From a virus: DNA of 27,684 nucleotides. Under the pieces are notes generated by a model. It searched no databases. It was not told the DNA's origin and saw only the letters and a list, made by a program, of their open reading frames with translations. Positions 7,363 to 23,941 of the stretch are shown in pieces (position 1 is the first letter of the stretch; every line of letters begins with the position of its first letter). The translations under genes and the position numbers were made by a program. Where the stretch lies: IMG/VR virus record IMGVR_UViG_3300047274_000088, positions 1 to 27,684 of that record. The stretch is one strand, 5' to 3'.

Positions 7363-7370
7363 GATAAATA
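7363..7370 (+). promoter_or_regulatory. T4-type late promoter box for the plus-strand pair
   Basis: GATAAATA matches seven of eight bases of the T4 late consensus TATAAATA. It lies about 55 bp upstream of the first plus-strand gene, in the right orientation. Late expression would fit gene products that carry capsid-targeting peptides. There is no compensating -35 box in this direction, as expected for gp55-type late promoters. Confidence 0.5.
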
Positions 7371-7425: not shown

Positions 7426-7980
7426 ATGAAAATTACTGAAGTACTAACAGAATCAAGCAAGATTTGTCCACAATGTGGAATGAGAGGTTGCACTTGCAAA
7501 CCTGGAACTTGTAAATGCAAACCGAAGCCCGGTTACCCAAAGAATATTGATGAAGCCGCAAACCCAGCACAACAAGCCGCTATTGCTATTAGTATGAAAA
7601 AGGCTGGTAAGAAGCCAAAAGATATACAAGAAGAAGATTTAGATGAGGATTGGCAAAAGGTCAACAAAAAAGACAAGACTGACGGTATGAGTAAAAAGGC
7701 CGTTAGTGCTTATCGTAGAGAGAATCCAGGATCTAAACTAAAGACTGCTGTTACTACTAAGCCTTCAAAACTAAAGAAGGGTAGTAAAGCCGCTAAACGC
7801 CGTAAGTCATTCTGTGCCAGAATGAGTGGAATGAAGAAGGCTCACGCAAGTGCTAAGACTAAACGAGATCCGGATAGCCCAATCAACAAAGCACTACGCA
7901 GATGGAATTGTGAAAGTGTACAACAGATGGAAAAATTGGTAATGATTGCTGAACAGAAAATCAGAAACCTTAAGAAATAA
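7426..7980 (+). CDS. Basic Cys-rich DUF6321-like protein with putative capsid-targeting peptide
   Basis: 184 residues, strongly basic. The first nine residues, MKITEVLTE, followed by Ser, resemble the T4 internal-protein targeting peptide (MKTYQEFIAE) cut by the gp21 prohead protease after (L/I)xE. Next comes a cysteine knuckle with C14, C17, C22, C24, C29 and C31 (CPQC...CTC...CKC), which could hold zinc. The C-terminal half contains SAYRRENPGSKLKTAVTTKP and KRRKSFCARMSGMKK, the hallmark of the DUF6321 family as I remember it. It is the first of only two plus-strand genes. The likely product is a DNA-associated protein packed into the head. The family and packaging role are inferred from motifs; the biochemical function is unknown. 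Confidence 0.75.
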   Translation: MKITEVLTESSKICPQCGMRGCTCKPGTCKCKPKPGYPKNIDEAANPAQQAAIAISMKKAGKKPKDIQEEDLDEDWQKVNKKDKTDGMSKKAVSAYRRENPGSKLKTAVTTKPSKLKKGSKAAKRRKSFCARMSGMKKAHASAKTKRDPDSPINKALRRWNCESVQQMEKLVMIAEQKIRNLKK

Positions 7981-7981
7981 C

Positions 7982-8659
7982 GTGAGAGCAAACGAATTCA
8001 TTAGTGAAGCTATTAGCCGTAGAGACTTACTTAAAGGTGTAGCGGGTGCCGCCGTGTCGGGCGCTACTGGTTTAGCTAAAGCAGGTGAATATCAAGATTT
8101 AGAAACTATAAAAAAACAACCTGACGTTTGGATGCCTAGATTTGAACAACTGCAACAACGCAGTAATGGTATGTTGGGTAAGTTAATGCGAGCCGCCGGA
8201 TCAGAATGGGCACAAAGACTAAAGGGTACAAAAGTTCTTGTTATGTCGAATGACCAATGGGTTCAAGGAAATGCTGACAATCGCACTGTCAGTCTTGACC
8301 TAACTGTGTTTTGGGATGCTCCCGATTCCACACTGGCATTTGCTATAGCACACGAACTGGGACATATTGCCCTAGCACACGGTGTTCAGCCTGATCCTGG
8401 GAAAGCACGTCAGGAAGAAATGGATGCTGACGATTTTGCTATTAGGTTATGTAGAGCTTTGGGTTACAACAAAGTTGAGATGTTCAAGTTCTTGCACCAA
8501 AAACAATCTGATTACGACTTTTACAATAGTATAACTAAACTGCCTAATAGCAGTCATCCCAGTTATGACAAACGTATCAATCGTGCAGGTCAAAAAGGAT
8601 TTCAGTTGTCAAAAGGTGGAGTTAAACAAATGAATACGCTAATGACACACTTAGCATAA
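7982..8659 (+). CDS. M48-type zinc metalloprotease with capsid-targeting-like and Tat-like signals
   Basis: 225 residues from a GTG start. The GTG lies one base after the upstream stop and gives the N-terminus M-RANEFISE; the upstream TTG start is unlikely. The metalloprotease motif HELGH is at 124-128, a third zinc ligand is probable at E147 in EEMDAD, and SSHPSYDKRI near 191-199 fits the M48 C-terminal pattern. Two N-terminal signals are stacked: RANEFISE followed by Ala resembles a prohead-protease cleavage site, and SRRDLLKGVAGAAVSG...LAKA (12-34) matches a twin-arginine signal with an AKA signal-peptidase site. An attractive but unproven reading is that the protein is packaged, injected and then exported by the host Tat system. 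It could instead be a periplasmic or envelope protease made during infection. Confidence 0.8.
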   Translation: MRANEFISEAISRRDLLKGVAGAAVSGATGLAKAGEYQDLETIKKQPDVWMPRFEQLQQRSNGMLGKLMRAAGSEWAQRLKGTKVLVMSNDQWVQGNADNRTVSLDLTVFWDAPDSTLAFAIAHELGHIALAHGVQPDPGKARQEEMDADDFAIRLCRALGYNKVEMFKFLHQKQSDYDFYNSITKLPNSSHPSYDKRINRAGQKGFQLSKGGVKQMNTLMTHLA

Positions 8660-9484
8660 CTAAATCTTCAATAACTGATCCATAGTATATAGATTACGCA
8701 TATAGGGTGACACATTTTCTAGCACACTGCTAGCAACGTCACCCTTTCTTCTTGGGCCGTATTTTACATCAATATCAATATTGTTTACTCCCATAAACTT
8801 ATTGACAATCTCTTTTACAGTATATCCTACACCGTGACCCAAACATTCTATACCATTACTGGGTTTCTCAATAGCTTGTTTCAATGCGTCACATATCTCG
8901 TTTACGTGTACATAATCACGCACACAAGTGCCATCAGGTGATACTTCATAATCATTACCAAATACAGTAAACTCTTTTGATTGCATAGCCATAATTAAGT
9001 TGTACATTAACCCATCGGGGTTAGTGGGAGCAAAGCCTTCGCTTCCAATAACATTATAAAATCTAAAGATTGTATATGGTATTTGACGATGAGTTGTACA
9101 ATATTCTTTCACTACGTCCTCTGCCGCACGTTTACTGATACCATAAGCACTCTCACAATCTTGTGCGGCACCTGTGCTTGCAAAGATAAAGTTCTTTGTC
9201 TTAATCTTGTTTAGTACATTCATTGTACCATTCAAATTAGTAATATAGTATTGAATAGGTTTCTGTTCACTTTCACCTACATTAACTAATGCGGCTAAAT
9301 GAATAACACAATCAAATTCATCTTCTAAACTAAACGGTCTATTGATATCACAATGATAGAATGTATTAGGTGATTCTTGTGGTTCTACTTTATCTAATCC
9401 ATACACCTGATATTCACCCTTCAGCATCTTAGTAAGATGTGAACCAATATAACCACTGTTACCTGTAATTAAAATCTTTTTCAT
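8660..9484 (-). CDS. NAD-dependent nucleotide-sugar epimerase/dehydratase (GalE-like)
   Basis: 274 residues, somewhat shorter than GalE. The N-terminal NAD-binding motif is GNSGYIGSH (8-16), followed by CVIHLAALVNV, the catalytic YGISK (Tyr-x-x-x-Lys) near 118-122, and the late DGTCVRDYVHV segment typical of UDP-sugar epimerases. It would interconvert or dehydrate a nucleotide sugar in the cytoplasm. Its start overlaps the stop of the adjacent glycosyltransferase gene (ATGA), so product and consumer are probably linked. It converges with the plus-strand protease gene with no spacer. Exact substrate not determinable. Confidence 0.85.
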   Translation of the reverse strand: MKKILITGNSGYIGSHLTKMLKGEYQVYGLDKVEPQESPNTFYHCDINRPFSLEDEFDCVIHLAALVNVGESEQKPIQYYITNLNGTMNVLNKIKTKNFIFASTGAAQDCESAYGISKRAAEDVVKEYCTTHRQIPYTIFRFYNVIGSEGFAPTNPDGLMYNLIMAMQSKEFTVFGNDYEVSPDGTCVRDYVHVNEICDALKQAIEKPSNGIECLGHGVGYTVKEIVNKFMGVNNIDIDVKYGPRRKGDVASSVLENVSPYMRNLYTMDQLLKI

Positions 9485-10830
9485 AATCCTTCAAACAGAC
9501 TTAATGCTGTTTCTTCCTCTACTGGTTTGTATGACGGGTCTTTGCTTAAGTATGTGTCAGTATCAGTATAATACACGCTTAAAAACTTATGCTTATTGCC
9601 TAACACACTTTCAAAATCTTCCCGTGCTAAATGCTTACGATTTAGTTCTGTAATGTAATCACTATACTTAACTGTTTCATATGTATTAATCTTAGCGGAA
9701 TTTGTATTGCTACGTTTACCTGCAAAGTTATCTAAGAAACTAACCCATCCTTGAGCCACCTCATTATCTAATTTACGTACATAATCCAATGCCTCCTCTG
9801 ATTGTAGGTCACAATATATGTCTACAATAGTCTCAGCGGCATCTTTAATGTTGACTTTATGAAAATATTTTGCATTGAAGTTATCACTCCAATCTTGATT
9901 GTCTAGTACTACACAAGGCATATGACCAAGACATTCTAAGAAAGCAAATGGATAGTTCTCACGCAAACTCGGCATAAAGAATACACCGCTACTACGAATG
10001 AAATCTACTTTCTCTTGTCCTGTAATACCTGCACGAATTTCGTAGTCAGTAATACCCGCCTCTGCAAAAGCTTTTTCAAACTTCTTAGCACCGTTACTGT
10101 TTGTCATTACCTTGCAAGGTAATTTACATTCTTTCATTACACGAATGTATGCTTCGGGGTTCTTTCCTTCTTCCCATCTTCCAATAAATAGTACACCTTT
10201 ATGCGATCCTGTATATAGTTCTAGCAACCCGCGCTCACTCATAGGCATACGCAGTAAAGCACAGTTTGTTGCACCAAACTTAGTAAGTTCATCAATATTC
10301 TTTTGACTTTGTGTACCAATAATGATATCAGTAAACTCCATATGTTTGTTATAGAAGTTGTGATAGCTATCCAAGAATACGTCACTACCTTGACTCTCAC
10401 GGAAAATCATACTATGTAAGTGTGTGTAAAATACAACAGGAATATATTTATTGACTGTCATTGCATAACTTGCAGTCATTGCTTCCTGTGTGTTGCATAC
10501 AATCATATCATAGACATTAGTTTCAAATGCTTTTAAAATACTTTTGCGGAAGTTAATAATTTTCTCAAAGTTAATTGTATCGCTAAATGCAAACGTAGCA
10601 GTATGGTCGCTGTATCTTAGTGGTTCATCCGGATAGATAATATTAGCACCCAATGAAATAATCAGTTCGCTAAACTCATTAGTAGGAGCTTTGTCTAACA
10701 CAATATCAACTTTCCAGCCAATACGACCGCACATCTCAGTGAAGCCTTTAGCAAAACTTCCTATTCCTCCGTGAGGAATAAAATGTTGGTCACTAATTAA
10801 AAAAGCAATTCGTTTATTGTATAATTTCAT
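9481..10830 (-). CDS. Glycosyltransferase, GT4-like (GT-B fold)
   Basis: 449 residues. The N-terminal domain opens with IAFLISDQHFIPHGGIGSFA, the glycine-rich acceptor-domain start of GT-B enzymes. The donor domain contains GVLFIGRWEEGKNPEAYI near 213-230 and FFMPSLRENYPFAFLECLG near 295-313, where the Glu-rich E-N-Y-P-F-A-F-L-E pattern binds the nucleotide sugar. The C-terminal ~90 residues after the GT core have no recognised motif. It follows a 57-residue gene by a four-base overlap and precedes the epimerase gene by the same. It may decorate the virion, phage DNA or host surface; the sequence does not say which. Confidence 0.85.
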   Translation of the reverse strand: MKLYNKRIAFLISDQHFIPHGGIGSFAKGFTEMCGRIGWKVDIVLDKAPTNEFSELIISLGANIIYPDEPLRYSDHTATFAFSDTINFEKIINFRKSILKAFETNVYDMIVCNTQEAMTASYAMTVNKYIPVVFYTHLHSMIFRESQGSDVFLDSYHNFYNKHMEFTDIIIGTQSQKNIDELTKFGATNCALLRMPMSERGLLELYTGSHKGVLFIGRWEEGKNPEAYIRVMKECKLPCKVMTNSNGAKKFEKAFAEAGITDYEIRAGITGQEKVDFIRSSGVFFMPSLRENYPFAFLECLGHMPCVVLDNQDWSDNFNAKYFHKVNIKDAAETIVDIYCDLQSEEALDYVRKLDNEVAQGWVSFLDNFAGKRSNTNSAKINTYETVKYSDYITELNRKHLAREDFESVLGNKHKFLSVYYTDTDTYLSKDPSYKPVEEETALSLFEGL

Positions 10831-11004: not shown

Positions 11005-11226
11005 TTACCTCGTTAGTTTCCATATAATATGGGCATTCTTATCGTGCCATCTATACTCAAGGATAGACTCACCGGGCCCAGTGATAATCCTAGTCATGCG
11101 ATAAGCCTTCTTTAACCAAATACGTTTACCAGTTAAATAACAAGTTTCAGGTAACCAAGCAAATTTATACTCGGTACCTATCATCATTTTACTATAGAAC
11201 GAATCGTATGATTCTGTTTGCGGCAT
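11005..11226 (-). CDS. Small protein of unknown function
   Basis: 73 residues from the ATG at 11226, which overlaps the queE stop (TAATG) and has GGGGAA upstream; a GTG four codons earlier is less likely. The sequence is aromatic and basic (YKFAWLPETCYLTGKRIWL ... EYRWHDKNAHIIWKLTR) with the look of a small beta-barrel. Function unknown. Confidence 0.65.
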   Translation of the reverse strand: MPQTESYDSFYSKMMIGTEYKFAWLPETCYLTGKRIWLKKAYRMTRIITGPGESILEYRWHDKNAHIIWKLTR

Positions 11227-12074
11227 TAAGTTCCCCACTCATTTTTAAAGAGAGGTACTTGCAGTCTATCACTATAACGATAACCACGGTTCATTGCTTC
11301 TATAGCAACATTCTTAGCATTTAAGTTATACAACGATTCTACACCACCGCATGGCATAAAGTATACTGGACCTCGAAATCCACCTTTTCTAAACTCTTGT
11401 ACTGCTTTATCTGCTTCAATTGCATCTTCTTTACTAGCAATAACAAACTTCAAATACACAAAGCCAACACTTTCATACTGACGAATGATACTAGGACAAA
11501 TTGCTTCACTCCACTTCTCACCACTGATACTTAGTTTAGGACTAACGCTAAATGTTAGTGCATTCTTTTCCCTGTTAATCTTCCATTGTTGTAGATAGAT
11601 TAATAAGTCTTGACTTAGTTCTTGTGTACCATTAGTTTCAAATGTAATCTCTTTGAGTCCCCTCATCTTCTCGTTTGAAAGTAAGTCAGGATACGCTCTT
11701 TGCCAGCCAAGAAGAGGTTCACCACCTGTGATGACAAGATGCTCATCCATCCAACGACTGTGAGGAAGTATATCCATAATGCTGTCAACAATACTATCGG
11801 TAGTAAGAACAGGACTAAGATGTTTAAACCTAGGGTCCCAACTTGCGTAGCTATCACATCCAGTACTGACCAACGGCAGTTTTTTATAATCATCATAATA
11901 GTGAACCCTTGCGGCAATATCTTCTACTTCTTTACTCACTTCACCTTTAGGCATGCCGAAGCCTGCACATGTAAAGTTACAACCAAATGTTCTTAGGAAG
12001 ATACTTGGTACTCCGATATATCGGCCTTCTCCCTGTATACTATAAAAAAGTTCACTTACTTTGATGTTTGCCAT
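11226..12074 (-). CDS. queE: 7-carboxy-7-deazaguanine synthase, phage-type with split cluster motif
   Basis: 282 residues. QueE is a radical SAM enzyme that rearranges 6-carboxytetrahydropterin to 7-carboxy-7-deazaguanine (CDG). The N-terminus KVSELFYSIQGEGRYIGVPS matches QueE closely. The cluster motif is unusual: C32 and C36 are in GCNFTC, but the third cysteine is C73 in GCDSYASWDP, which matches the CDTxYxWD segment that normally follows directly. About 34 residues are therefore inserted into the cluster loop. VITGGEPLL near 114-122 is the SAM-binding glycine motif. It works downstream of folE (17271) and queD (15832), supplying base for DpdA. The ATG has an AAGGAA site and lies inside the end of the HNH gene (23 bp overlap). 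Confidence 0.9.
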   Translation of the reverse strand: MANIKVSELFYSIQGEGRYIGVPSIFLRTFGCNFTCAGFGMPKGEVSKEVEDIAARVHYYDDYKKLPLVSTGCDSYASWDPRFKHLSPVLTTDSIVDSIMDILPHSRWMDEHLVITGGEPLLGWQRAYPDLLSNEKMRGLKEITFETNGTQELSQDLLIYLQQWKINREKNALTFSVSPKLSISGEKWSEAICPSIIRQYESVGFVYLKFVIASKEDAIEADKAVQEFRKGGFRGPVYFMPCGGVESLYNLNAKNVAIEAMNRGYRYSDRLQVPLFKNEWGT

Positions 12075-15181: not shown

Positions 15182-15832
15182 TTAAAATTTATTTGATGCT
15201 AATACGATTTGACAAATATGTTCTAATCGTTCAATGTGTTCAAAAGCACGCCATGGACTTGTATCTATAGCAACAACTCCGTGTCCTTTGATACCTACAA
15301 TATCGTAAGCAATATTGCCTTTATTGTCTAATTGTAACATCTTATGGCACTGGTCTGCAAGCTCTTGACTAATCGGAGGCACGTCTCCTACATTGGGTGC
15401 TACCTTGGTGTAACGATTCAATTCTGGAAACGCTTTGCTAATAGTGCTTAAATCAATACCGGCGTGCATTGCCGCAATACAATAAGTAGGGTGTAAATGA
15501 ACTACAACTCTTACATCATCACTGTGCTGACCCATTTCTCGTTGTAAGCCAAAGTGTAGTGGTATTTCTCCACTAGGTTTTAGCTTCTCACTAATGTCTG
15601 TATATGCCAATTCTTTCCAAGAATAGTATGGTTTAGGAGGTTGGTCATAGTAGCCTTGTTCAATGCCAATCTTCTTAAACTGATCTGGTTGCATGGTCTG
15701 CTTACGCACACCACTGGGAGTGATATAGAAATGATCCCGGTCGTGATGACGAATACTTACATTGCCATCACGACTGGTAATCCAGTTGCGTCTATATGCT
15801 TCAACTAACGTATCGCAAATTGTTTCTAACAT
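15182..15832 (-). CDS. Class II aldolase/adducin-family protein
   Basis: 216 residues, the usual length. It shows SRDGNVSIR (20-28) as the substrate phosphate loop, the catalytic glutamate in PSGEIPLHF (E89), zinc histidines in VVVHLHPTYC (H112, H114) and GIKGHGVVA (H184). Members include fuculose- and ribulose-phosphate aldolases, epimerases and methylthioribulose-phosphate dehydratase; the sequence does not pick one. It overlaps queD by one base (TAATG) and would be transcribed from the queD promoter. It probably supplies or removes a sugar phosphate for the glycan genes nearby. Confidence 0.8.
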   Translation of the reverse strand: MLETICDTLVEAYRRNWITSRDGNVSIRHHDRDHFYITPSGVRKQTMQPDQFKKIGIEQGYYDQPPKPYYSWKELAYTDISEKLKPSGEIPLHFGLQREMGQHSDDVRVVVHLHPTYCIAAMHAGIDLSTISKAFPELNRYTKVAPNVGDVPPISQELADQCHKMLQLDNKGNIAYDIVGIKGHGVVAIDTSPWRAFEHIERLEHICQIVLASNKF

Positions 15833-16314
15833 TATGCAAACTCTCCGTCTTCCCTATGACCACCACGACCTGCCATATTACTGTCAGTCTCACGAACCTC
15901 TACTCTACAGCACCATACACGCTTTGCTTCTTCGCTACCACAGTTAGGCAAGAAGATTGTGTTAATGTATTCATATAAGAAGTCAGCAATACCTTCACAA
16001 CCAGTACGTTCTACCTCTGTAATCTTTGCTAGTTTCAAACGACCTAGTTCTAATAGATGTTCACGCATCGGGTCATCTTGTGCGACTAGTAGAGTATGGT
16101 CAAACCATTCTTCTAGTTTATCTTTGAGTGGGCGTAATCCACCGAAGTCGGTTACCCAGTTACGGGCATCTAATGTATCGGCCTCAAACTCAAAGTGAAA
16201 ACTCATAGCATAACCATGAATTAAGTTACAATGACTGTCAGCACGCCATTGACGATATGCGACAGGACCTATTTGTCTGTATGTCTTTGTTGAAAAGAAT
16301 TTTTTGTTTGCCAT
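15832..16314 (-). CDS. queD: 6-carboxy-5,6,7,8-tetrahydropterin synthase, QueD type
   Basis: 160 residues. QueD turns dihydroneopterin triphosphate (from FolE) into 6-carboxytetrahydropterin. Motifs in order: SHCNLIHGYAMSF with the catalytic Cys C29 and His H33, VTDFGGLRPLK (DFG near 56-58), FDHTLLVA (D72, H73), TGCEGIADFLYEYI with E107, and VEVRETDSNMA with E141. The usual HGH zinc motif reads HGY (Y35), so one ligand is replaced or comes from H28. The substitution may be a phage-lineage feature. It is the first gene of its transcript, with a strong promoter and an AGGAG site. Confidence 0.88.
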   Translation of the reverse strand: MANKKFFSTKTYRQIGPVAYRQWRADSHCNLIHGYAMSFHFEFEADTLDARNWVTDFGGLRPLKDKLEEWFDHTLLVAQDDPMREHLLELGRLKLAKITEVERTGCEGIADFLYEYINTIFLPNCGSEEAKRVWCCRVEVRETDSNMAGRGGHREDGEFA

Positions 16315-16389: not shown

Positions 16390-16863
16390 TTATTTATTAA
16401 GAGTGTTAATAATCTGGGCATCAGCTACCCGTTTTCTTAAACTTGAGCTACTGAAACTGTGGTCACGACCATTGAATACAAGTTCAATGCCACGTTCTCC
16501 GCCTTCATATCTTCCAGTAAACTCTTTTTCGGCATACTCTACACCTAGTATCCGAACATCTAATGGTAGAATAAGTAGTAGGTCGATAAGGTCCTGTTCA
16601 GTTTGATATACAACTACTTCATCAACATAGCGACAAGCCGCAAGTTGAATCTGTCGTTCTACGATACTTTGAATGGGTTTGTTCTTAGTATCAGGTCTAT
16701 CAATAGTTGGGTCAGTTTGTAATCCACAAATTAAATAATCGCAATGATTCTTCGCCTCACTTAACATAGCAACGTGACCTGCGTGTAATAAATCAAATGT
16801 ACTGAAAGTAATGCCAATCTTTTTACCTTGTGCTTTTAGTTCTTTAATGTGATTGAAAATCAT
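16390..16863 (-). CDS. Nucleotidyltransferase, cytidylyltransferase (TagD/RfaE-C) type
   Basis: 157 residues from the ATG at 16863, which overlaps the preceding stop (ATGA) and has a GGAGA site; a start six codons earlier is less well placed. The nucleotide-binding HxGH motif is HAGH (27-30) after GITFSTFDLL, and RDHSFSSSSLRKR (133-145) is the second nucleotide-binding segment. Such enzymes activate sugar or polyol phosphates with CTP or ATP. A second enzyme of this type, fused to a cupin, is encoded at 19654. Substrate unknown. Confidence 0.82.
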   Translation of the reverse strand: MIFNHIKELKAQGKKIGITFSTFDLLHAGHVAMLSEAKNHCDYLICGLQTDPTIDRPDTKNKPIQSIVERQIQLAACRYVDEVVVYQTEQDLIDLLLILPLDVRILGVEYAEKEFTGRYEGGERGIELVFNGRDHSFSSSSLRKRVADAQIINTLNK

Positions 16864-17096
16864 TTTGAAAGAGTTCTCCACATTTTAGTTTGGTCGTGTT
16901 CTTTTAAGAATTCATCCTCACCAACAAATGTGGGAGCATCACGCATAATCTCATCTAACAACCACTTGATACGATGCAAGTCTTTTTTGATTTCAAATTG
17001 ATTGTAACCATCATTGTAATTACTATGTAATTCTACACCACTCATATAGATTTGATGATGTACGCTATTGTAATCCATTTGTTTACGCATTCCCAT
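16860..17096 (-). CDS. Small protein of unknown function
   Basis: 78 residues. The ATG at 17096 has GGGAG seven bases upstream, inside the end of the DHFR-like gene, so I keep the longest start. The sequence contains [20 protein letters not shown], suggesting a helix pair. Aromatic and charged, no known motif. Confidence 0.65.
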
Positions 17097-17274
17097 TATT
17101 CAACTCCCATAATTCAAGAGCCTTTGCAGGATAAATTTGTACAGAACCTTTTTCTGTATGACTCTCAACTGCATATCCTTCGGGCGTTAACTCAGTTGAA
17201 TATGTACCCACTACTTTACCGTGCCATTCTGAACCAGACACTTTTTTAACCATATCACCTAATTTAAATTTCAT
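17083..17274 (-). CDS. dfrB: Type II (R67-like) dihydrofolate reductase homologue
   Basis: 63 residues. From GDMVKK to the VQIYP segment it aligns with the R67 plasmid dihydrofolate reductase as I remember it, including [10 protein letters not shown] and GSVQIYP. The active-site loop V-Q-I-Y is intact at 45-48, with S44, K11 (R67 K32), W17 (W38) and Y25 (Y46) also kept; R67 W45 is Thr here. The disordered N-terminal tail of R67 is absent. R67 is an SH3-like tetramer that reduces dihydrofolate with NADPH. The ATG at 17274 overlaps the folE stop (ATGA), tying it to pterin synthesis. Activity is unproven: it could be a related SH3-like protein with another role. Confidence 0.75.
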
Positions 17275-17957
17275 TTGCAACCTTTGTTAGCAATTTGTAA
17301 GAACTCACTACGTGCCGCAGGATCTGTTTTAAAACCACCACCTAAACGACAAGTGACAGTACTACTACCGGTATCTTCAACACCACGTGACTTAACACAA
17401 TAGTGTTGTGCGTCAATCATAACTGCAACATCTTCTGTATCAAGGATGAACTGTAAGGTGTGAAAAATTTGCTCTGTTAACCTCTCTTGGATCTGAGGCC
17501 TTTTGCTAAAATATTCTACTATACGGTTGATCTTACTAAGCCCAAGAACTTTTTGTTTAGGGACATAAGCTACAGTAGCCAATCCGTCGATGACTACAAA
17601 ATGATGTTCGCAGTTAGATTGAACATTAACATTACGCTCTACAACCATTTCGTTGTATTGCATCTTGTTGTCAACTGTTGTACATTTAGGGAACGCATCG
17701 TAATCAAGCCCCCAAAAGATTTCGTTGACATACATCTTAGCGACACGTTTAGGTGTTTCTGTTAGGCTATCATCATCTAGGTCTAGACCCATTGTTTCCA
17801 TAATAGCTTTGAAATGACCTTCAATCTTTTCAATACGATCCTTACGATCACCTAAATCAATTGTATCGTCAATTGGCGTTTCTACGCCCATATTTAATAG
17901 ATGTAGATGAACTTTTTGACCCAACTCAGGGTCGCATTTTGTTTTATTATAACTCAT
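17271..17957 (-). CDS. folE: GTP cyclohydrolase I
   Basis: 228 residues from the ATG at 17957, which is chosen because AAAGGAAGG lies just upstream; an earlier start would add 19 residues that look non-coding. FolE opens GTP to dihydroneopterin triphosphate, the first step to CDG. Signature segments: [19 protein letters not shown] (C116 and H119 zinc, H118 catalytic), [23 protein letters not shown], and [20 protein letters not shown] with C187. It feeds QueD and QueE; folate is the alternative use. It overlaps the DHFR-like gene by four bases. The leader holds a perfect inverted repeat. Confidence 0.93.
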
Positions 17958-17992
17958 AGATAACCTTCCTTTGTGATGGTTTTGTTTTGACA

Positions 17993-18016
17993 TTGTGTTA
18001 CCGTTGTGTAACACAA
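17993..18016. repeat. Perfect inverted repeat in the folE leader
   Basis: Arms TTGTGTTAC and GTAACACAA (nine bases each) surround a six-base loop. It lies 36 bp before the folE ATG, just downstream of a late-like box. There is no T-run, so it is not a typical terminator; an operator or a 5' mRNA hairpin is more likely. Confidence 0.7.
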
Positions 18017-18017
18017 G

Positions 18018-18025
18018 TATTTATC
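18018..18025 (-). promoter_or_regulatory. T4-late-like box upstream of folE
   Basis: The minus strand reads GATAAATA, seven of eight bases of the late consensus, overlapping the stop codon of the preceding gene. The same TGATAAATA string precedes the plus-strand pair at 7362-7370. The placement is plausible for folE but the match could be chance. Confidence 0.35.
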
Positions 18026-18254
18026 ACTTTGATTTAGCAACTGATTTTTTTGATTTAGCTTTAACTGCGGGCTTTGTATTGGCAAGTTCAACACTAGCGC
18101 AGGCTTCACGTACCTCTTTAACTAATGCATCCCAATCCCATTCTAATTCAGTACGACCATCAGAGTAGGTAGACACAGTTAAGTGACTACCTACTAGTAT
18201 GGAGTCTGGCAATGAACTAACTTCTTCAAGTTGAATTTTCTTGCGAGTTGCCAT
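18024..18254 (-). CDS. Small protein with Lys/Ala-rich tail, unknown function
   Basis: 76 residues. The body (SLPDSILVGSHLTVSTYSDG, ELEWDWDALVKEV) is followed by a basic C-terminal tail (KPAVKAKSKKSVAKSK, about 61-76) that looks like a histone H1-type tail and may bind DNA. It follows the Hc1-like gene by two bases, so the two may act together. Function unknown. Confidence 0.65.
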   Translation of the reverse strand: MATRKKIQLEEVSSLPDSILVGSHLTVSTYSDGRTELEWDWDALVKEVREACASVELANTKPAVKAKSKKSVAKSK

Positions 18255-18256
18255 AT

Positions 18257-18451
18257 TTAAGCCTTAGCTTTTGCTTCTGCACGTGCGGCTTTTTCTGCTG
18301 TAATTTCGTTACGGCGAGCCTTAACTGCTTTAGCTAACTCTGCTAATGCTTTTCGGGCACGTGTACCAGCGGCTGCATTGCCTTTGTTAAACTTATCGTT
18401 CTCGGCATTGTATGCCGCTAAACTAGTTTCAATATCATTTTGTGCGCTCAT
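18257..18451 (-). CDS. Histone H1-like (Hc1-type) protein
   Basis: 64 residues from the ATG at 18451 (AAGGAG upstream), preferred over an in-frame start nine codons earlier. The segment KGNAAAGTRARKALAELAKA (about 23-42) matches the core motif of the Hc1 histone-like family as I recall it, and the C-terminal part is Ala/Lys/Arg/Glu-rich. Hc1-type proteins bind and compact DNA without clear sequence preference. In a phage it may organise the genome or affect host transcription. Confidence 0.7.
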   Translation of the reverse strand: MSAQNDIETSLAAYNAENDKFNKGNAAAGTRARKALAELAKAVKARRNEITAEKAARAEAKAKA

Positions 18452-18461
18452 AATTTTCTCC

Positions 18462-19661
18462 TTAATATTTTGCTTCACGGGTGTGTTTGCGATAATCAGA
18501 ATCCATACGCAACCATTGTTGTCCTTTGCCTTCTAATATATCACAAATTCTATCGATTGTACCATCAGTCCAATCACTTATCTTACCCTGATTTACGTGC
18601 GGGTGATGTAACATATTATATAACTTAATTGTTGCATCTTCAACACTCCAGGGCGTATATAATCTTGTATAGTCATTCGCAAATGTTTCTGGGAAACTGC
18701 GATATGCAGGATACAATACATTACAACCTAATGCATCTGCTTCACTTACTGTATTACTTACCCAATCTTGTAACGCACAGTTAAACAACACTCTTGTATC
18801 ATTTAGTAATTCATAATATGCGTTCTTATCAAGGTCCTCGAATACACGCAACAATCCACGATTTTGCATATCTTGTGTACGCTTCATATAACTATCGTTG
18901 TTGCTTTTTAGTTTACTACCACTGAACACACAGAATTCTACACCACGATATACACCATAACGATCCTTTTCACCATATCGTTTAAAGAATTCTTCAATCA
19001 CATCCATATAGAAGTCTGGTTGTTTTTCTTGATCCCATCTAGCACTAAATGCAATACGCATCTTGCGTTCATCGAATGGCTTAATGTCGTTGTTTATACG
19101 ACTACGTACTTCTTCTTTACCAAATGCTAAGCCTGAGATATTGTAGATCGGAGCACGCCAACCCGCAATCTTCATATGCATAACCATTTCTTCGTTTGAA
19201 GCAAGTACACCGTCACAAAAACTATCTACCATCTTCTCATAGTGACCCATGAACTCACTCATACCCCATACGTGTACGAAATCATCAGGGTCAATACTTT
19301 GTGCTAGACAGCGAACAAAAATCTTAGGACGACTTGTGATCGGGATCTGTTTCATAATGTAGGGCAATGATTCAATGCCCGGCTGAAACATATCTTCAAA
19401 ATAAACTATATCACCTGCGCCTACATCGCCCTGCTTCATCATCTTAACTAGATTCATTAGTTGACTCATACCAAAGTATGTGCGACCATGAGCATCTAAT
19501 ACTTGACCAGTAACAATAGCTTGGTCATTACTTAATGTTTCGCCCGGGACAATAACATAGTTAATGCCCCTGCGTTTAAATACACTTTCATTCCAGTCTT
19601 GTAACTGTAGTGTGTATCTTGCTTTGTAAGGCTCAAGGCCCATGTAAAATAGTTTATGCAT
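18462..19661 (-). CDS. Glycosyltransferase, GT-B type
   Basis: 399 residues. The C-terminal donor domain is recognisable: RIAFSARWDQEKQPDFYMDV near 223-242 and the later VSNTVSEADALGCNVLYPAY near 313-332, which follow the GT4-type pattern of a first donor-domain strand and an E-x(n)-E nucleotide-sugar loop. The N-terminal half (LFYMGLEPYKARYTLQLQDW) is less familiar and may hold a specific acceptor site. It overlaps the bifunctional nucleotidyltransferase gene by eight bases, suggesting it uses that product. Distinct from the glycosyltransferase at 9481. Acceptor unknown. Confidence 0.75.
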   Translation of the reverse strand: MHKLFYMGLEPYKARYTLQLQDWNESVFKRRGINYVIVPGETLSNDQAIVTGQVLDAHGRTYFGMSQLMNLVKMMKQGDVGAGDIVYFEDMFQPGIESLPYIMKQIPITSRPKIFVRCLAQSIDPDDFVHVWGMSEFMGHYEKMVDSFCDGVLASNEEMVMHMKIAGWRAPIYNISGLAFGKEEVRSRINNDIKPFDERKMRIAFSARWDQEKQPDFYMDVIEEFFKRYGEKDRYGVYRGVEFCVFSGSKLKSNNDSYMKRTQDMQNRGLLRVFEDLDKNAYYELLNDTRVLFNCALQDWVSNTVSEADALGCNVLYPAYRSFPETFANDYTRLYTPWSVEDATIKLYNMLHHPHVNQGKISDWTDGTIDRICDILEGKGQQWLRMDSDYRKHTREAKY

Positions 19662-20415
19662 TTTGTCGTTTAATATCTTCTTCTACACATTTCTTACCAT
19701 ATTGAATCTCAACGATTTTACAAGGTTTACTAAATGTGTTAGTTAACTGATGCCACTCATCAGGCTTAATAGTGATTGTATCATGTTTACTTAGAATTGT
19801 CTCAGTCACTTCACCCGTTTCAGCGTACCCACGTAGCTTACATTTACCCTCAGTAACAATCCAATATTCACTGCGCTTACTATGTTTCTGCATACTGAGA
19901 GATTGTTTTGGTTCTACTGTAAGTTCTTTTACCTTAGTACCATCTACTTCGTGCAACACACGATAGTATCCCCAATCACGTTCTGTTTTGGGTGCTTTCC
20001 AAGTGTCGAGAATCCAACTACTTGAATTTACCTTGTCTTCCCCACCTACACTAAAAACGAATTCGATGTTATTGTCATCGATATCCATTTCTGGAATGTT
20101 ATCACTGGTTCTATCACCACCATTAGCAAATACAATAGTTGCTTCTGGATAGTTTTCTCTAATTTGTCTAATAGCATCTTTGGCAGTATCGTCACTATCA
20201 TCAAACAATAACAATGCATCAGGTGTATCTAATGCTGAAGTTACTGCTACACGCTCACCTAGTGGCAAGAATGGTCTACCTTTTTTACGAGACAACCAAG
20301 CATCGCTATTAAGACCGATGACTAGCATATCTCCTAATTTTTTTGCCGCATTGATATATGCGATATGGCCGCTATGTAGTGGATCAAATCCACCTGTGAT
20401 TAATACTACTTTCAT
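19654..20415 (-). CDS. Nucleotidyltransferase-cupin fusion (sugar activation)
   Basis: 253 residues from the ATG at 20415, which overlaps the previous stop (ATGA) and follows GAGGA; a start seven codons earlier is less likely. The N-terminal ~140 residues form an HxGH nucleotidyltransferase (GGFDPLHSGHIAY, HSGH at 14-17; KVNSSSW near 128) as in RfaE/HldE C-domains. Residues ~150-250 form a cupin like the isomerase half of ManC: QSLSMQKHSKRSEYWIVTEG and KPDEWHQLTN hold the metal residues. One protein would thus activate and isomerise or bind a sugar phosphate. It precedes a glycosyltransferase gene. Substrate not determinable. Confidence 0.8.
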   Translation of the reverse strand: MKVVLITGGFDPLHSGHIAYINAAKKLGDMLVIGLNSDAWLSRKKGRPFLPLGERVAVTSALDTPDALLLFDDSDDTAKDAIRQIRENYPEATIVFANGGDRTSDNIPEMDIDDNNIEFVFSVGGEDKVNSSSWILDTWKAPKTERDWGYYRVLHEVDGTKVKELTVEPKQSLSMQKHSKRSEYWIVTEGKCKLRGYAETGEVTETILSKHDTITIKPDEWHQLTNTFSKPCKIVEIQYGKKCVEEDIKRQNA

Positions 20416-20612
20416 GGGCGCATATCCTCTGCCCATTGATCTTTAGCCCACTTGCCGGCTAATTGTTTTTGATGCTGACGATATGCGAAAACACGCATAT
20501 CATACAGTGTTGATTCGTCAAACTTGTAACCATAGTCTTGACAAAATGTCAAGTAATTTTCAAGGTCCTCAAATAGTTGTTGAACACGTGGGTTAGATTG
20601 TTGTTTTGCCAT
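20412..20612 (-). CDS. Small protein of unknown function
   Basis: 66 residues, helical, aromatic and Gln-rich (RVQQLFEDLENYLTFCQDYG ... FAYRQHQKQLAGKW). It resembles a small protein I recall as uncharacterised in T4-like cyanophages. It overlaps the fusion gene by four bases. Function unknown. Confidence 0.65.
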   Translation of the reverse strand: MAKQQSNPRVQQLFEDLENYLTFCQDYGYKFDESTLYDMRVFAYRQHQKQLAGKWAKDQWAEDMRP

Positions 20613-20625
20613 TTTATTAATTCCT

Positions 20626-21081
20626 TTAAATAGCTAGTGATTGATAAGGTTTGTTTGTATTATAGACAATCGTAGCACCATTCTCATTATCTTCTGATAC
20701 TTGAATAACAATATTACGATCTGGATATCGAGTTGCAATGACTTCATAGAGGTCATCACTAATCATTTCACAACTTTTGTAATCCAACGCAAGAATGCCT
20801 TGAGAATATTGATTCTCTAACCATCGCTTGAACTGAATAAACTCAATATCACGGTCGTTGTGAAACACTTCAATAGACACTTCAAAATGAAAGATGTGTC
20901 TATGTGGAGTTGCTAGAAAGCTAACATCATACTCATCACCTGTTGCCAGATTAGGGTCTGTTGCTGCCGCTGGGTATTTATGAATACCTTCTTTTTGAAA
21001 ACGTACAAAGATTGTGCGAATTGCGTGTTGCTTAATACGATTGCGTTTTTCGAATTCTGCTTGTGTTTTTTGTTCAATCAT
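20626..21081 (-). CDS. QueD-like T-fold protein without the catalytic cysteine
   Basis: 151 residues. Segments in order match the QueD/PTPS layout: TPHRHIFHFEVSIEV (HxH at 60-62, where QueD has HGH), RDIEFIQFKRWLENQ (78-91; QueD has DFxxLK), KSCEMISDDLYEVI (102-115; QueD has TxENLAxxI) and IQVSEDNENGA (126-136; QueD has VxVxET). There is no cysteine before the first His motif, so it is unlikely to do normal QueD chemistry. It lies one small gene from dpdA and may process the deazaguanine base or bind it. Assignment to the T-fold superfamily is by eye. Confidence 0.6.
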   Translation of the reverse strand: MIEQKTQAEFEKRNRIKQHAIRTIFVRFQKEGIHKYPAAATDPNLATGDEYDVSFLATPHRHIFHFEVSIEVFHNDRDIEFIQFKRWLENQYSQGILALDYKSCEMISDDLYEVIATRYPDRNIVIQVSEDNENGATIVYNTNKPYQSLAI

Positions 21082-21290
21082 CTATCATCTCCTAAATCTA
21101 CTGTGTTATGGTCATTGTCCCATTGAGCACGAATCATCATTCTAAGTTCTTTATTGTACTTGTCTTTGGTTTCTTTTAAATCAGATAATTTTTTAGTGTC
21201 TGTTGAACTGTTCTTTTCTAATTGAAAGATTTGATTATCTAACAGTCTAACTGATTCTTCTAGTGTCTTAATACGATTTTTATATGGCAT
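21078..21290 (-). CDS. Small coiled-coil protein, unknown function
   Basis: 70 residues, mostly one helix with a heptad pattern (IKTLEESVRLLDNQIFQLEK ... LSDLKETKDKYNKELRMMI) and an acidic end. It sits between dpdA and the QueD-like gene, overlapping the latter by four bases. It may be a partner subunit; no motif is visible. Confidence 0.65.
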   Translation of the reverse strand: MPYKNRIKTLEESVRLLDNQIFQLEKNSSTDTKKLSDLKETKDKYNKELRMMIRAQWDNDHNTVDLGDDR

Positions 21291-21291
21291 A

Positions 21292-22842
21292 TTATTCCCC
21301 TAATATTTTAGAAATTTCATCATCACTATCTTCAATGATTTCTTCAAACTCTGGTTCATCTTTTACATCAAAGAGTTGGTCAAACATTGTTAATGCATTC
21401 ATTGTTTTCTTACCACTGATACCTTGACTACCTGATTGAAACTGCATCCATAGTCTACTGTTTTGATTAATTAAATCAATACTTTCCTGTTTAGTTTTCT
21501 TACTGAATATTTCATCAATAACATCCTTAAACAATACACGTTCAAATTGTTCATTCATCAACATTTTAGGTACTACACCTTGTTCATATTGACGATTGGC
21601 TTCTTGTACTGCATTCATATGCATCCATACATTATGACTTTGAATCAATGTATAACTCAATGTATCCCAACTTGTTTTAGTTTCTTTACCGTGCTGACCA
21701 ATAAATCCTTGACCACGATAACACATATCCTTAAGCACTAGTTTATCAGTTACTGGACTATCTGTAAAGATTTTATGGATACCTTCAGCCAATACAGCAT
21801 CACGATATTTACGATTATCATTAGCATAACTTTTCTTTTCAGCAGTCTTTTCCATACTATATGACCATTTCTTATTATGCTCAATACTAGTATTGAAATA
21901 TGCTAAACCTTTAGCCGCACTAAAGAATGGGCTTGCACAGTCAAATGTAATTTGTAGTTTAGGGTTATGATACTTTCGAATAGCTTTCTGAATATCAGTA
22001 AACAATACAGCATACTCTAAGATACTTGTACCCAAACAGTGAATCAAATCGTGTTTACCTTCTACCAGTAAACCATCATATATAATATCAACCATTCGTG
22101 TTAGCATCAAATGAACATCAATCTTATTCTGACCACCGAATGCCCAACCATTAAAATGATTGTCTGGATACTGATTTGGATCACAATACTTTTTCATTTC
22201 AGCATACCAATCGTCACTTTGTTTATGTGTACGACCTTGTAATACATTTAAGAACTTACATTTACCCGAACGATTATTAATAAAGTATTCGTTATTGATA
22301 TGAGTAGCACTAATAGCTTCTTCGATAGTACTGATACCGTGAAGACTGACACCATTCTTATCTTTCATATGAAAGGTAGTTAATGACTGTGAAGGAATAT
22401 CAAGGACCATACCATAGTCCATATATGTGTCCATCCAGTTCAATACTGCTTTACGCTTTACCATAGCTTTGGGACAGTTAGGGTCTTTCCAATCAGCTGG
22501 CCATTGACCTTTAAGAATCTGAAACCCACCACTGTCACCTAACATAAACGTACCAGCTTCACGTTCTCTAATGATACTTTCACTAGGATCGTTTTTAGTA
22601 GTATCTAAGTTTGCGTGACCAGCACTGTACAGTCCCCACTTATAATAGTAGAGACCTTCTTTGCTATTAAGAAAGTTTAATTTCTCCACATCACCATTAA
22701 ATTGTGCAGGGATACGTGCAGGATCAAAGTACTGTTCACCTTTACGTTGTTTACCCAAGCCAGCAATATAGAAACTACTGACTGCGGGTAAGAACAATGC
22801 CCAATCTGGGTTTTGTTTTTGTGATAGATTGTCTTGTTCCAT
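21292..22842 (-). CDS. dpdA: DpdA-type DNA-guanine transglycosylase
   Basis: 516 residues, longer than bacterial tRNA-guanine transglycosylases. TGT-type motifs in order: MLGDSGGFQILKG (D103-Q108, base-recognition loop), MVLDIPSQS (145-152), FLNVLQGRT with QG at 202-203, WAFGGQNK (233-240), and FDCASPFF near 300-307, where D301 is the likely nucleophile. I do not see the zinc CxCxxC of tRNA enzymes, and the acidic C-terminal tail (about 490-516) is unlike them, both consistent with DpdA, which replaces guanine in DNA by a 7-deazaguanine. FolE, QueD and QueE supplying its substrate are in the same window. Which DpdA subfamily it belongs to cannot be told here. Confidence 0.87.
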   Translation of the reverse strand: MEQDNLSQKQNPDWALFLPAVSSFYIAGLGKQRKGEQYFDPARIPAQFNGDVEKLNFLNSKEGLYYYKWGLYSAGHANLDTTKNDPSESIIREREAGTFMLGDSGGFQILKGQWPADWKDPNCPKAMVKRKAVLNWMDTYMDYGMVLDIPSQSLTTFHMKDKNGVSLHGISTIEEAISATHINNEYFINNRSGKCKFLNVLQGRTHKQSDDWYAEMKKYCDPNQYPDNHFNGWAFGGQNKIDVHLMLTRMVDIIYDGLLVEGKHDLIHCLGTSILEYAVLFTDIQKAIRKYHNPKLQITFDCASPFFSAAKGLAYFNTSIEHNKKWSYSMEKTAEKKSYANDNRKYRDAVLAEGIHKIFTDSPVTDKLVLKDMCYRGQGFIGQHGKETKTSWDTLSYTLIQSHNVWMHMNAVQEANRQYEQGVVPKMLMNEQFERVLFKDVIDEIFSKKTKQESIDLINQNSRLWMQFQSGSQGISGKKTMNALTMFDQLFDVKDEPEFEEIIEDSDDEISKILGE

Positions 22843-23213
22843 TAAACTTTTACTTCTTCTTTTAACAATGTTTGAACAATTTTAATTTGTTCTTCTTTGT
22901 CTTTGATTTGATTTACAAGGTCTTTGATAGCTGGACTAGTTTCTGCTAATCGTTCTAATTCAAGTTCTTCATTACGCTTTTTTCGTGCCCACTCTAACAA
23001 GCTAACTGCTTCATCACTTAAGTTTATATTAGCGTGCTGTGCTGAAAGAATAATCCAAGTACTACCATCATACACTTCTATGTTCTGATTATTAGGATTA
23101 TATCGCATATTACCTACACCGGGTGCATTGCTATAGTTACCTATATAAGTAGATCCAGGATTACCACCTGATACATTTAAGAATGGACTACTAGAGTGTA
23201 TGCTCTTAATCAT
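22842..23213 (-). CDS. Small protein with structural-protein-like N-terminus and coiled coil
   Basis: 123 residues. The N-terminal half is Gly/Asn/Ser-rich with YIGNYSNAPGVGNMRYN and NNQNIEVYDGSTWIIL, a pattern I associate with phage tail or adhesin-like strands. The C-terminal half is a long charged helix (SLLEWARKKRNEELELERLA and onward). The stop overlaps the dpdA start and the gene start overlaps the sliding clamp stop. Possibly structural; function unproven. Confidence 0.6.
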   Translation of the reverse strand: MIKSIHSSSPFLNVSGGNPGSTYIGNYSNAPGVGNMRYNPNNQNIEVYDGSTWIILSAQHANINLSDEAVSLLEWARKKRNEELELERLAETSPAIKDLVNQIKDKEEQIKIVQTLLKEEVKV

Positions 23214-23941
23214 TTTGCGTTAGCTGGCAATAGATATGTGTATGTAGCTAGACCTGAATCTACTGTGATTTCTGTCGCACCTGCATCAGCGATACGAACT
23301 TTCTTATCACCAGGCAAGTCCATAATAGCTAAGAACACTTTAACTGGCCAGTTCCAAGCTTTGTTTAATGAGCCAGTAACACCTGGTTGAAACACAAAGT
23401 TACCACTGTGAGTTGATGGGTCACCAAAGTTAACTTTCAAGTCACCGTTAACTGTTGAGAATGTAAAATGTTCTTCTTCACTATTAGCACTTGCTTGTTT
23501 CTTTAGTCGTTGAATACCTGCAATAGTAGGTTCAAACTCAACATTCCAAGTAGTACCCTTGAATGTGACAGTTTTAACTTTTTCTTCTACGATTGATTTA
23601 GTCATCAAACGATAGTCATTCACAAATGAACCGTCCTTTGTTTCAAAGTGAATAGTACTAGGTACATCGACACCATCACGATTAGTACGTAATACAGAGA
23701 TTTTAGCGTGTTCATCATAGTCATCAAAACCAAGAATAGTTTTGAGTTTAGTTAAGTTAGGCATACCGAACACACCGATGAAGTCACTGATTGGGCTATT
23801 CAATACTCCTGATACAATAACAGTTTTCTTTTCTGAAATTGCGTTGATAGTTGTCTCGGTATCAGTACCTGAAACTTTAATTAAGTCTACATCACCTAGA
23901 CCGTTAGTGTGTGTAATTAAATCTTGTAAATAATCTTTCAT
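23210..23941 (-). CDS. 45: Sliding clamp, gp45 type
   Basis: 243 residues, slightly longer than T4 gp45. Composition and strand pattern fit a trimeric clamp: an N-terminal DLITHTNGLGDVDLIKVSGT, VIVSGVLNSPISDFIGVFGM near 40-60, NLTKLKTILGFDDYDEHAKI, and a final TYTYLLPANAK. The clamp tethers the polymerase to DNA and in T4-like phages also activates late transcription. The polymerase gene lies just upstream. RBS AAAGG before the ATG. Overlaps the next gene by four bases. Confidence 0.88.
   Translation of the reverse strand: MKDYLQDLITHTNGLGDVDLIKVSGTDTETTINAISEKKTVIVSGVLNSPISDFIGVFGMPNLTKLKTILGFDDYDEHAKISVLRTNRDGVDVPSTIHFETKDGSFVNDYRLMTKSIVEEKVKTVTFKGTTWNVEFEPTIAGIQRLKKQASANSEEEHFTFSTVNGDLKVNFGDPSTHSGNFVFQPGVTGSLNKAWNWPVKVFLAIMDLPGDKKVRIADAGATEITVDSGLATYTYLLPANAK

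Follow-up and report, generated by a model that had tools for sequence, protein, structure and literature searches.

Two tagged genes of a T4-type jumbo phage encode candidate prohead-packaged proteins, one with a twin-arginine signal behind its predicted cut

The gene pair and its source genome

The pair of genes described here lies on a 27,684-base IMG/VR record (IMGVR_UViG_3300047274_000088, the whole of which we call the window), which is a fragment of a larger genome. Gene 1 encodes a DUF6321 protein and gene 2 an M48-type metallopeptidase with a predicted twin-arginine translocation (Tat) signal, and both begin with a short sequence that resembles the capsid-targeting tag of the phage T4 internal proteins (Table 1). 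An earlier reading of the window, made from its letters alone (the original prediction), had named these two as its only plus-strand genes, and our coordinates and N-termini agree: 42 of the 46 called open reading frames (ORFs) are on the minus strand, and two further plus-strand ORFs overlap minus-strand genes, leaving genes 1 and 2 as the only credible ones. The GTG start of gene 2 falls one base past the stop of gene 1, and this start and the tag behind it are kept in close relatives. Both genes are under purifying selection, with ratios of nonsynonymous to synonymous substitution (dN/dS) of 0.04 for gene 1 (compared with L001) and 0.12–0.16 for gene 2.

Table 1. Features of the gene pair (positions in the window; arrows mark predicted cuts)
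Feature	Position	Strand	Details
Candidate late-promoter box GATAAATA	7363..7370	+	63 nt upstream of gene 1 start
Gene 1, tagged DUF6321 protein	7426..7980	+	ATG start, 184 aa, MKITEVLTE↓SSKICPQCG
Capsid-targeting-like tag MKITEVLTE of gene 1	7426..7452	+	Predicted cut after E9
Cys-rich module SSKICPQCG...NIDE of gene 1	7453..7554	+	Ends at predicted junction IDE↓A
AANPAQQAAIA module of gene 1	7555..7647	+	Ends at predicted junction LDE↓D
DUF6321 module DWQKVNKKDKTDG... of gene 1	7648..7977	+	PF19846 match
Gene 2, tagged Tat-signal M48-type metallopeptidase	7982..8659	+	GTG start, 225 aa, (M)RANEFISE↓AISRRDLLKG
Capsid-targeting-like tag (M)RANEFISE of gene 2	7982..8008	+	Predicted cut after E9
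Tat signal AISRRDLLKGVAGAAVSGATGLAKA of gene 2	8009..8083	+	Predicted signal-peptidase site AKA↓GEYQ
Metallopeptidase domain of gene 2	8084..8656	+	HELGH at 8351-8365, EEMDADDFA

The source of the window is an uncultivated T4-type jumbo phage. Its family-B DNA polymerase (24019-26736, minus strand) has the jumbo phages Phosso of Sinorhizobium, Atu_ph07 of Agrobacterium and RaK2 as nearest isolate neighbours (43–49% identity) and shares 97% identity with that of a 524,565-base record (G018, IMGVR_UViG_3300027749_002876) and 93% with that of a 348,701-base record (G019). We used these two nearest large records as stand-ins for the rest of such a genome. In G018 itself there are two copies of the polymerase gene, with 91% and 97% identity to that of the window, and two DUF6321 loci near the ends (16719-23433 and 506479-513193); the record may be chimeric or two strains joined.

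A shared tag in front of many unrelated proteins

Both proteins start with M[KR]xxE(V/F)(L/I)xE↓[SA], reading LTE↓S at the predicted cut in gene 1 and ISE↓A in gene 2. When N-termini matching the pattern M[KR]xx[polar][hydrophobic][hydrophobic]xE were compared with shuffled N-termini, the window held 2 tagged genes against 0.04 expected, G018 held 12 against 0.34, and G019 held 6 against 0.24. The likeness to T4 internal proteins that the original prediction had pointed out is present and exceeds the shuffling expectation, and the search it proposed for further (L/I)xE N-termini, made here in related genomes, yields them in both large records. Across all fetched loci, a similar pattern occurred at 77 of 3616 start candidates and at none of the internal methionines (0/8404). 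As a positive control, two of the three tagged internal proteins of T4 were recovered, and T7 gave no tagged genes. The nine-residue pattern of the jumbo clade matches neither T4 nor the cyanophage S-CREM2 (see below), because their tags are one residue longer; some marine tags, such as MKTFKQFISE↓A, are nearly identical to MKTYQEFIAE↓A of T4.

The bodies of the 125 distinct tagged proteins fell by BLAST into at least 34 unrelated families, and their Pfam domains include DUF6321, GH19, DUF6934, NUDIX, superoxide dismutase, SET, amidoligase, M48, GNAT and LysM. Four tagged proteins end in a GH19 domain (L141:8295-9317; L150:16381-17232, minus strand; L091:6543-7556; L049:4409-5257); a Tat motif stands directly behind an xE junction in two, a Sec-like hydrophobic stretch is present in two, and one includes LysM. 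Another locus (L112:3455-8278, minus strand, in G009) encodes four tagged, partly paralogous proteins in which we noted by eye ADP-ribosyltransferase (ART)-like motifs (WRG, SQNTxNxYT); Pfam and PDB sequence searches with the one tested were empty. Atu_ph07 (L379, NC_042013.1) contains only one convincing tagged ORF, MKTLQDYLTE↓S, from an in-frame ATG at 85148. The annotated start of its gp113 (84393-85061, minus strand) lies downstream of that ATG, and tagged homologues occur in G010, G018 and G019.

Tagged proteins in the virion of S-CREM2

Because the enrichment pattern was drawn up while these sequences were in view, we took as an independent test a consensus derived from the T4 tag alone, applied to S-CREM2, a cultured T4-like Synechococcus phage with gp21, and compared with its published virion proteome (PMC10665884). 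This consensus picks six S-CREM2 ORFs, five of which are in the virion proteome (p = 0.005 over all ORFs, and p = 0.0004 once known structural proteins are removed). The five, with tags of the form MK.(F/L)..F(L/M).E, are a SAM hydrolase, a kinase, an NMNAT-like protein and two hypothetical proteins. The same proteome contains, with 4 peptides, the DUF6321 protein gp137. S-CREM2 belongs to another T4-like lineage, and the available part of the report does not mention the tag. A further virion-detected protein, the Cas9-like ORF12 (record 7704-10313, minus strand), has an annotated start upstream of a tag-like LRFASFMAE↓A; this start may be misannotated.

The prohead protease and head-protein cleavage sites

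The original prediction presupposed a gp21-type prohead protease in the complete genome. A Peptidase_S77 (gp21) gene was found in G018, G019, Atu_ph07, RaK2, Phosso and T4 and was absent in T7, and in G018 and G019 it stands in a full T4-type prohead cluster, a row of portal (gp20), acidic core protein, gp21, scaffold (gp22) and gp23. There was no Peptidase_S77 match in the window or in the mid-sized relatives G001–G011, G013 and G016, all of which are fragments, and we therefore do not take this result as absence. In T4, gp21 cleaves after L/I-x-E, and for packaging the ten N-terminal residues of IPIII are enough (PMC9026906). The comparison with head-protein cleavage sites that the original prediction suggested gives, at the gp23 N-terminus of G018 and G019, the sequence ...KKQLLAE↓SS, with a predicted site of the L-x-E↓S type like LTE↓S of gene 1; gp23 in four other gp21-bearing records has FLSE↓A, ILNE↓T, LME↓A and ITE↓Q.

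Exchangeable modules joined at glutamate

The tagged proteins seem to be built as chains of interchangeable modules, each standing either after the N-terminal tag or after an internal [LIVM]xE junction. We took modules that stand behind a tag in one protein and looked for them in the interior of others: glutamate directly preceded the module in 31 of 54 distinct internal contexts, compared with 0–13 of 54 at the other seven upstream positions and a background of 6.7%, and it was the majority residue at the junction in 8 of 12 module families. For DUF6321, xE stood ahead of DW or GENW in every complete context listed, and one protein (L136) has repeated QGVAE↓G linkers. The complete genomes of four podophages (HTVC023P, HTVC203P, C75C1 and HTVC027P), which have no gp21 match, served as a negative control: their DUF6321 proteins are short and stand-alone, with neither a tag nor an xE junction.

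The reading of gene 1 as a DUF6321-like protein held up, with a PF19846 match above its cut-off (E = 6.7e-12, 46.3 bits, cut-off 28.5). In six relatives (L004–L008 and L010) the Cys-rich module is missing and the tag directly joins AANPAQQ, a module that occurs in relatives both after tags and after internal xE junctions. Because of these junction glutamates in relatives, we divide gene 1 into tag, Cys-rich, AANPAQQ and DUF6321 modules, with candidate cuts at IDE↓A and LDE↓D. A predicted DUF6321 model is all helical (predicted local distance difference test, pLDDT, 76; predicted template-modelling score, pTM, 0.55); no structural match to it was found, and we therefore claim no fold-based function. 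Nor did we find any mention of DUF6321 in the open-access literature.

Two relatives, L356 and L358, encode a single protein with a tag, a Tat-M48 module and then, after QLNE↓, DUF6321. Judged by this arrangement, the window has the same set split over two genes. L356, L106, L136 and L141 are multi-domain, whereas a single catalytic domain is present in gene 2 and a single recognised domain in gene 1. The fused relative, like the internal junctions of gene 1 and the Tat signal of gene 2, was missed by the original prediction.

A Tat signal behind the predicted cut of gene 2

Gene 2 had been called a metalloprotease, and it matches PF01435 (M48) above the cut-off (E = 1.3e-8, 35.4 bits, cut-off 20.3) and contains HExxH with a downstream E/AD region; HExGH and the downstream E/AD positions are invariant among its relatives. 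Against NF052400 it scored 16.3 bits (cut-off 570). A Foldseek search with its structural model (pLDDT 63) gave as best PDB match the periplasmic protease BepA of E. coli, which is a weak match (probability 0.99, E = 0.024). P0002 had no tblastn match among the phage isolate collection, and the PDB sequence search gave nothing usable. The PADLOC matches to peptidase_U41, Lit and CapP that gene 2 gave are limited to the HExxH region and were rejected.

Behind the tag of gene 2, the Tat-signal model TIGR01409 matches above its curated cut-off (19.9 bits, cut-off 16.7) and PF10518 below its own (E = 0.0027, 18 bits, cut-off 22.7). The signal has (S/N)RRxxLK, a hydrophobic stretch and an AxA that is conserved in relatives. 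The cleavable glutamate sits 2–4 residues ahead of RR in all 11 of 11 sequences, which represent three module types (M48, GH19 and the L013 module). L347 and L352 have the tag and no Tat signal; L348 resembles them, but the end of its tag is degenerate. In L352 GEYQ directly follows the tag, and this is the very point where signal peptidase would cut the Tat form. Tag, Tat signal and enzyme therefore behave as separate modules. The gene-2 module occurs behind a tag (FISE↓), behind an N-terminal domain in L106/L339 (ELAE↓) and L012/L350 (KVSE↓), and, after PVDE↓, in a nucleotidyltransferase-led protein of G018.

Large, untagged nucleotidyltransferase-led proteins were also noticed (L291:6765-8804 in G018; near 182703 in G018 and near 292853 in G019, both on the minus strand). 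They have a nucleotidyltransferase-like lead module (SGSNAAYSYTxHSDLDLHxLV), further modules joined at xE, and a conserved tail (ASGYIPSxKQKNDPRFKTALTVDV...SRAGIPPTA). A similar S-CREM2 protein, ORF156, is in the virion proteome.

The upstream box

Among the NATAAATA variants, only GATAAATA exceeds its expected number in G018 and G019, and it lies 63–64 nt or 25–30 nt from many tagged starts. It was found upstream of 10 of 37 tagged genes against 142 of 1426, a modest enrichment (p = 0.003) by a stricter count that supersedes our first one over all NATAAATA variants (17/38 against 327/1594, p = 9e-4). No such box occurs within 150 nt of gp23.

Discussion

We conclude that both genes probably encode internal head proteins, or effector modules, that are packaged in the prohead and released by gp21, with the product of gene 2 perhaps addressed to the host periplasm. 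Packaging of both proteins is likely. The original reading of the two as T4-like candidate internal proteins is supported by gp21 and LLAE↓S in G018 and G019, by the many tagged families and by the S-CREM2 proteome. The tag, the modularity, the junction glutamate, the Tat signal and gp21 in the clade are features of the sequences themselves, and published experiment places tagged proteins, as well as a DUF6321 protein, in virions of one relative only, S-CREM2. We envisage that the nine-residue capsid-targeting sequence would take each protein into the prohead core, where gp21 would cut after the (L/I)xE of the tag; IDE↓A and LDE↓D are probable further cut sites in gene 1. Once matured, the modules would remain inside the head until they pass into the next host together with the DNA. 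For gene 2, the predicted cut would leave a protein starting AISRRDLLKG, which is a Tat signal, and an injected, folded metallopeptidase could therefore use the Tat export of its new host. Trimming by signal peptidase at AKA↓GEYQ would then give a periplasmic, BepA-like protease, which might plausibly edit proteins of the envelope, as a measure against superinfection, for instance, or against a defence linked to the envelope. A cytoplasmic role, perhaps directed at nucleic acid, may fall to the DUF6321 module, which is basic and contains Cys. More tentatively, and leaning slightly against it ourselves, we raise the broader idea that gp21 serves T4-type jumbo phages as a polyprotein processor, in which one tag brings in a string of modules and cuts at xE, some uncovering a Tat signal, send effectors to both cytoplasm and periplasm.

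The packaged proteins might instead carry T4-like tags that are cut once only, the internal xE sites being linkers of a polyvalent-type multidomain effector that is injected whole. The known T4 internal proteins do have a single cut, behind the tag (PMC9026906), and polyvalent phage proteins often move as long chains (PMC5512222). We nevertheless regard this as unlikely, given the concentration of glutamate at position −1 of exchangeable modules, the xE ahead of DUF6321 in all complete contexts listed and the junction-free podophages that have no gp21; moreover, gp22 and gp67 of T4 each have several cut sites (PMC9026906). That the Tat-bearing M48 and GH19 proteins act late, as enzymes which the producing cell exports so that its envelope is weakened for lysis, the tag being incidental or a late-gene mark, accords with the above-cut-off Tat signal and with the two other tagged proteins that combine a Tat motif with a muralytic GH19 domain. 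It is improbable in view of the tag being kept where Tat is not (L347 and L352, with L348 degenerate) and in L356, which is only 30% identical; besides, lysis has no need of a cleavable (L/I)xE, and the tagged proteins of S-CREM2 are virion-associated.

Tagged proteins could also be prohead core or assembly proteins, like gp67 and gp68, that are cut up and lost rather than acting as effectors; a small tagged protein (352493) does adjoin gp21 in G018, and T4 IPIII has a further role in head morphogenesis (PMC9026906). Such a role sits poorly with the enzyme payloads (M48, GH19, NUDIX, SET, superoxide dismutase and GNAT), which differ among close relatives and are located far from the capsid cluster, and we judge it very improbable. 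As for a chance likeness between two short N-termini, the motif is just nine residues long, yet the shuffling controls, its absence from internal methionines, the number of tagged families and the S-CREM2 overlap make coincidence barely credible.

Several observations weigh against packaging, gp21 release and export as we propose them. The virion proteomics come from S-CREM2 only, a distant T4-like cyanophage, whose authors note that some non-structural proteins may be contaminants of the CsCl preparation (PMC10665884); gp137 has no N-terminal tag, its DUF6321 module following SSMNE↓DW. The 54 junction contexts are related, so that a p value for them is only indicative, and 23 of the 54 have no glutamate, many of these being cases in which the alignment is shifted by a residue or two; with a motif as short as xE, moreover, some junctions may be ordinary linkers. 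The structural model of gene 2 is poor, and the Tat-M48 module of the nucleotidyltransferase-led G018 protein stands in a protein without a tag. A protein with an uncut tag might also be Tat-competent, and cleavage therefore need not control export. Finally, the late-type box claimed ahead of the genes is there, but its enrichment comes mainly from G018 and it therefore lends weak support to the late-promoter argument.

As in T4 IPI, IPII and IPIII (MKTYQEFIAE↓A), a short MK/MR tag with a hydrophobic pair and an x-E cut position precedes unrelated payloads, in a clade that has gp21. The proteins described here differ from these in their nine rather than ten tag residues, their enzyme payloads, their multi-module chains with repeated xE junctions and the Tat signal right behind the cut, and we saw no likeness to IPI–III past the tag. 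Ip1–3, injected proteins with an anti-restriction role, inhibit type IV restriction enzymes, and Ip genes have been traced by their signal sequence in T-even phages (PMC12373910); that tags bring varied proteins into T4 heads is known, and a review of Black's work suggests a general T4-like device (PMC9026906). With polyvalent proteins (Iyer et al. 2017, PMC5512222) the chains seen in relatives share a multi-domain, mosaic build, predicted entry with the DNA, and ART-like, peptidase and nucleotidyltransferase-like modules. Those authors liken polyvalent proteins to polyproteins and do not find T4-family ARTs in genuine ones (PMC5512222). In that paper release is ascribed to embedded peptidase domains and the finds are mainly in portal-terminase phages, whereas here a tag and junctions match a separate prohead protease. 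Gene 2 is an HExxH metallopeptidase like BepA/YfgC and the bacterial M48 peptidases; it differs from BepA in the Tat signal and phage tag in front, its much shorter length and its weak overall similarity. In the open-access literature we found neither gp21-type junctions between effector modules nor a Tat signal behind a capsid-targeting tag.

Together, tag and junction rule offer a simple sequence test for packaged effectors and their cut sites in genomes rich in unknown genes, one that already fits a published virion proteome. If the Tat reading is true, phages send effectors to a chosen compartment of the host, of which our open-access searches found no description.

Additional observations

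Elsewhere in the window, four minus-strand genes (17271-18014, 15832-16314, 11226-12074 and 21292-22842) form a candidate 7-deazaguanine set. Among them GTP cyclohydrolase I was confirmed; QueD-like and radical-SAM QueE-like genes and a 516-residue TGT/DpdA-like gene were assigned by eye (no Pfam match). The set possibly serves 7-deazaguanine DNA modification.
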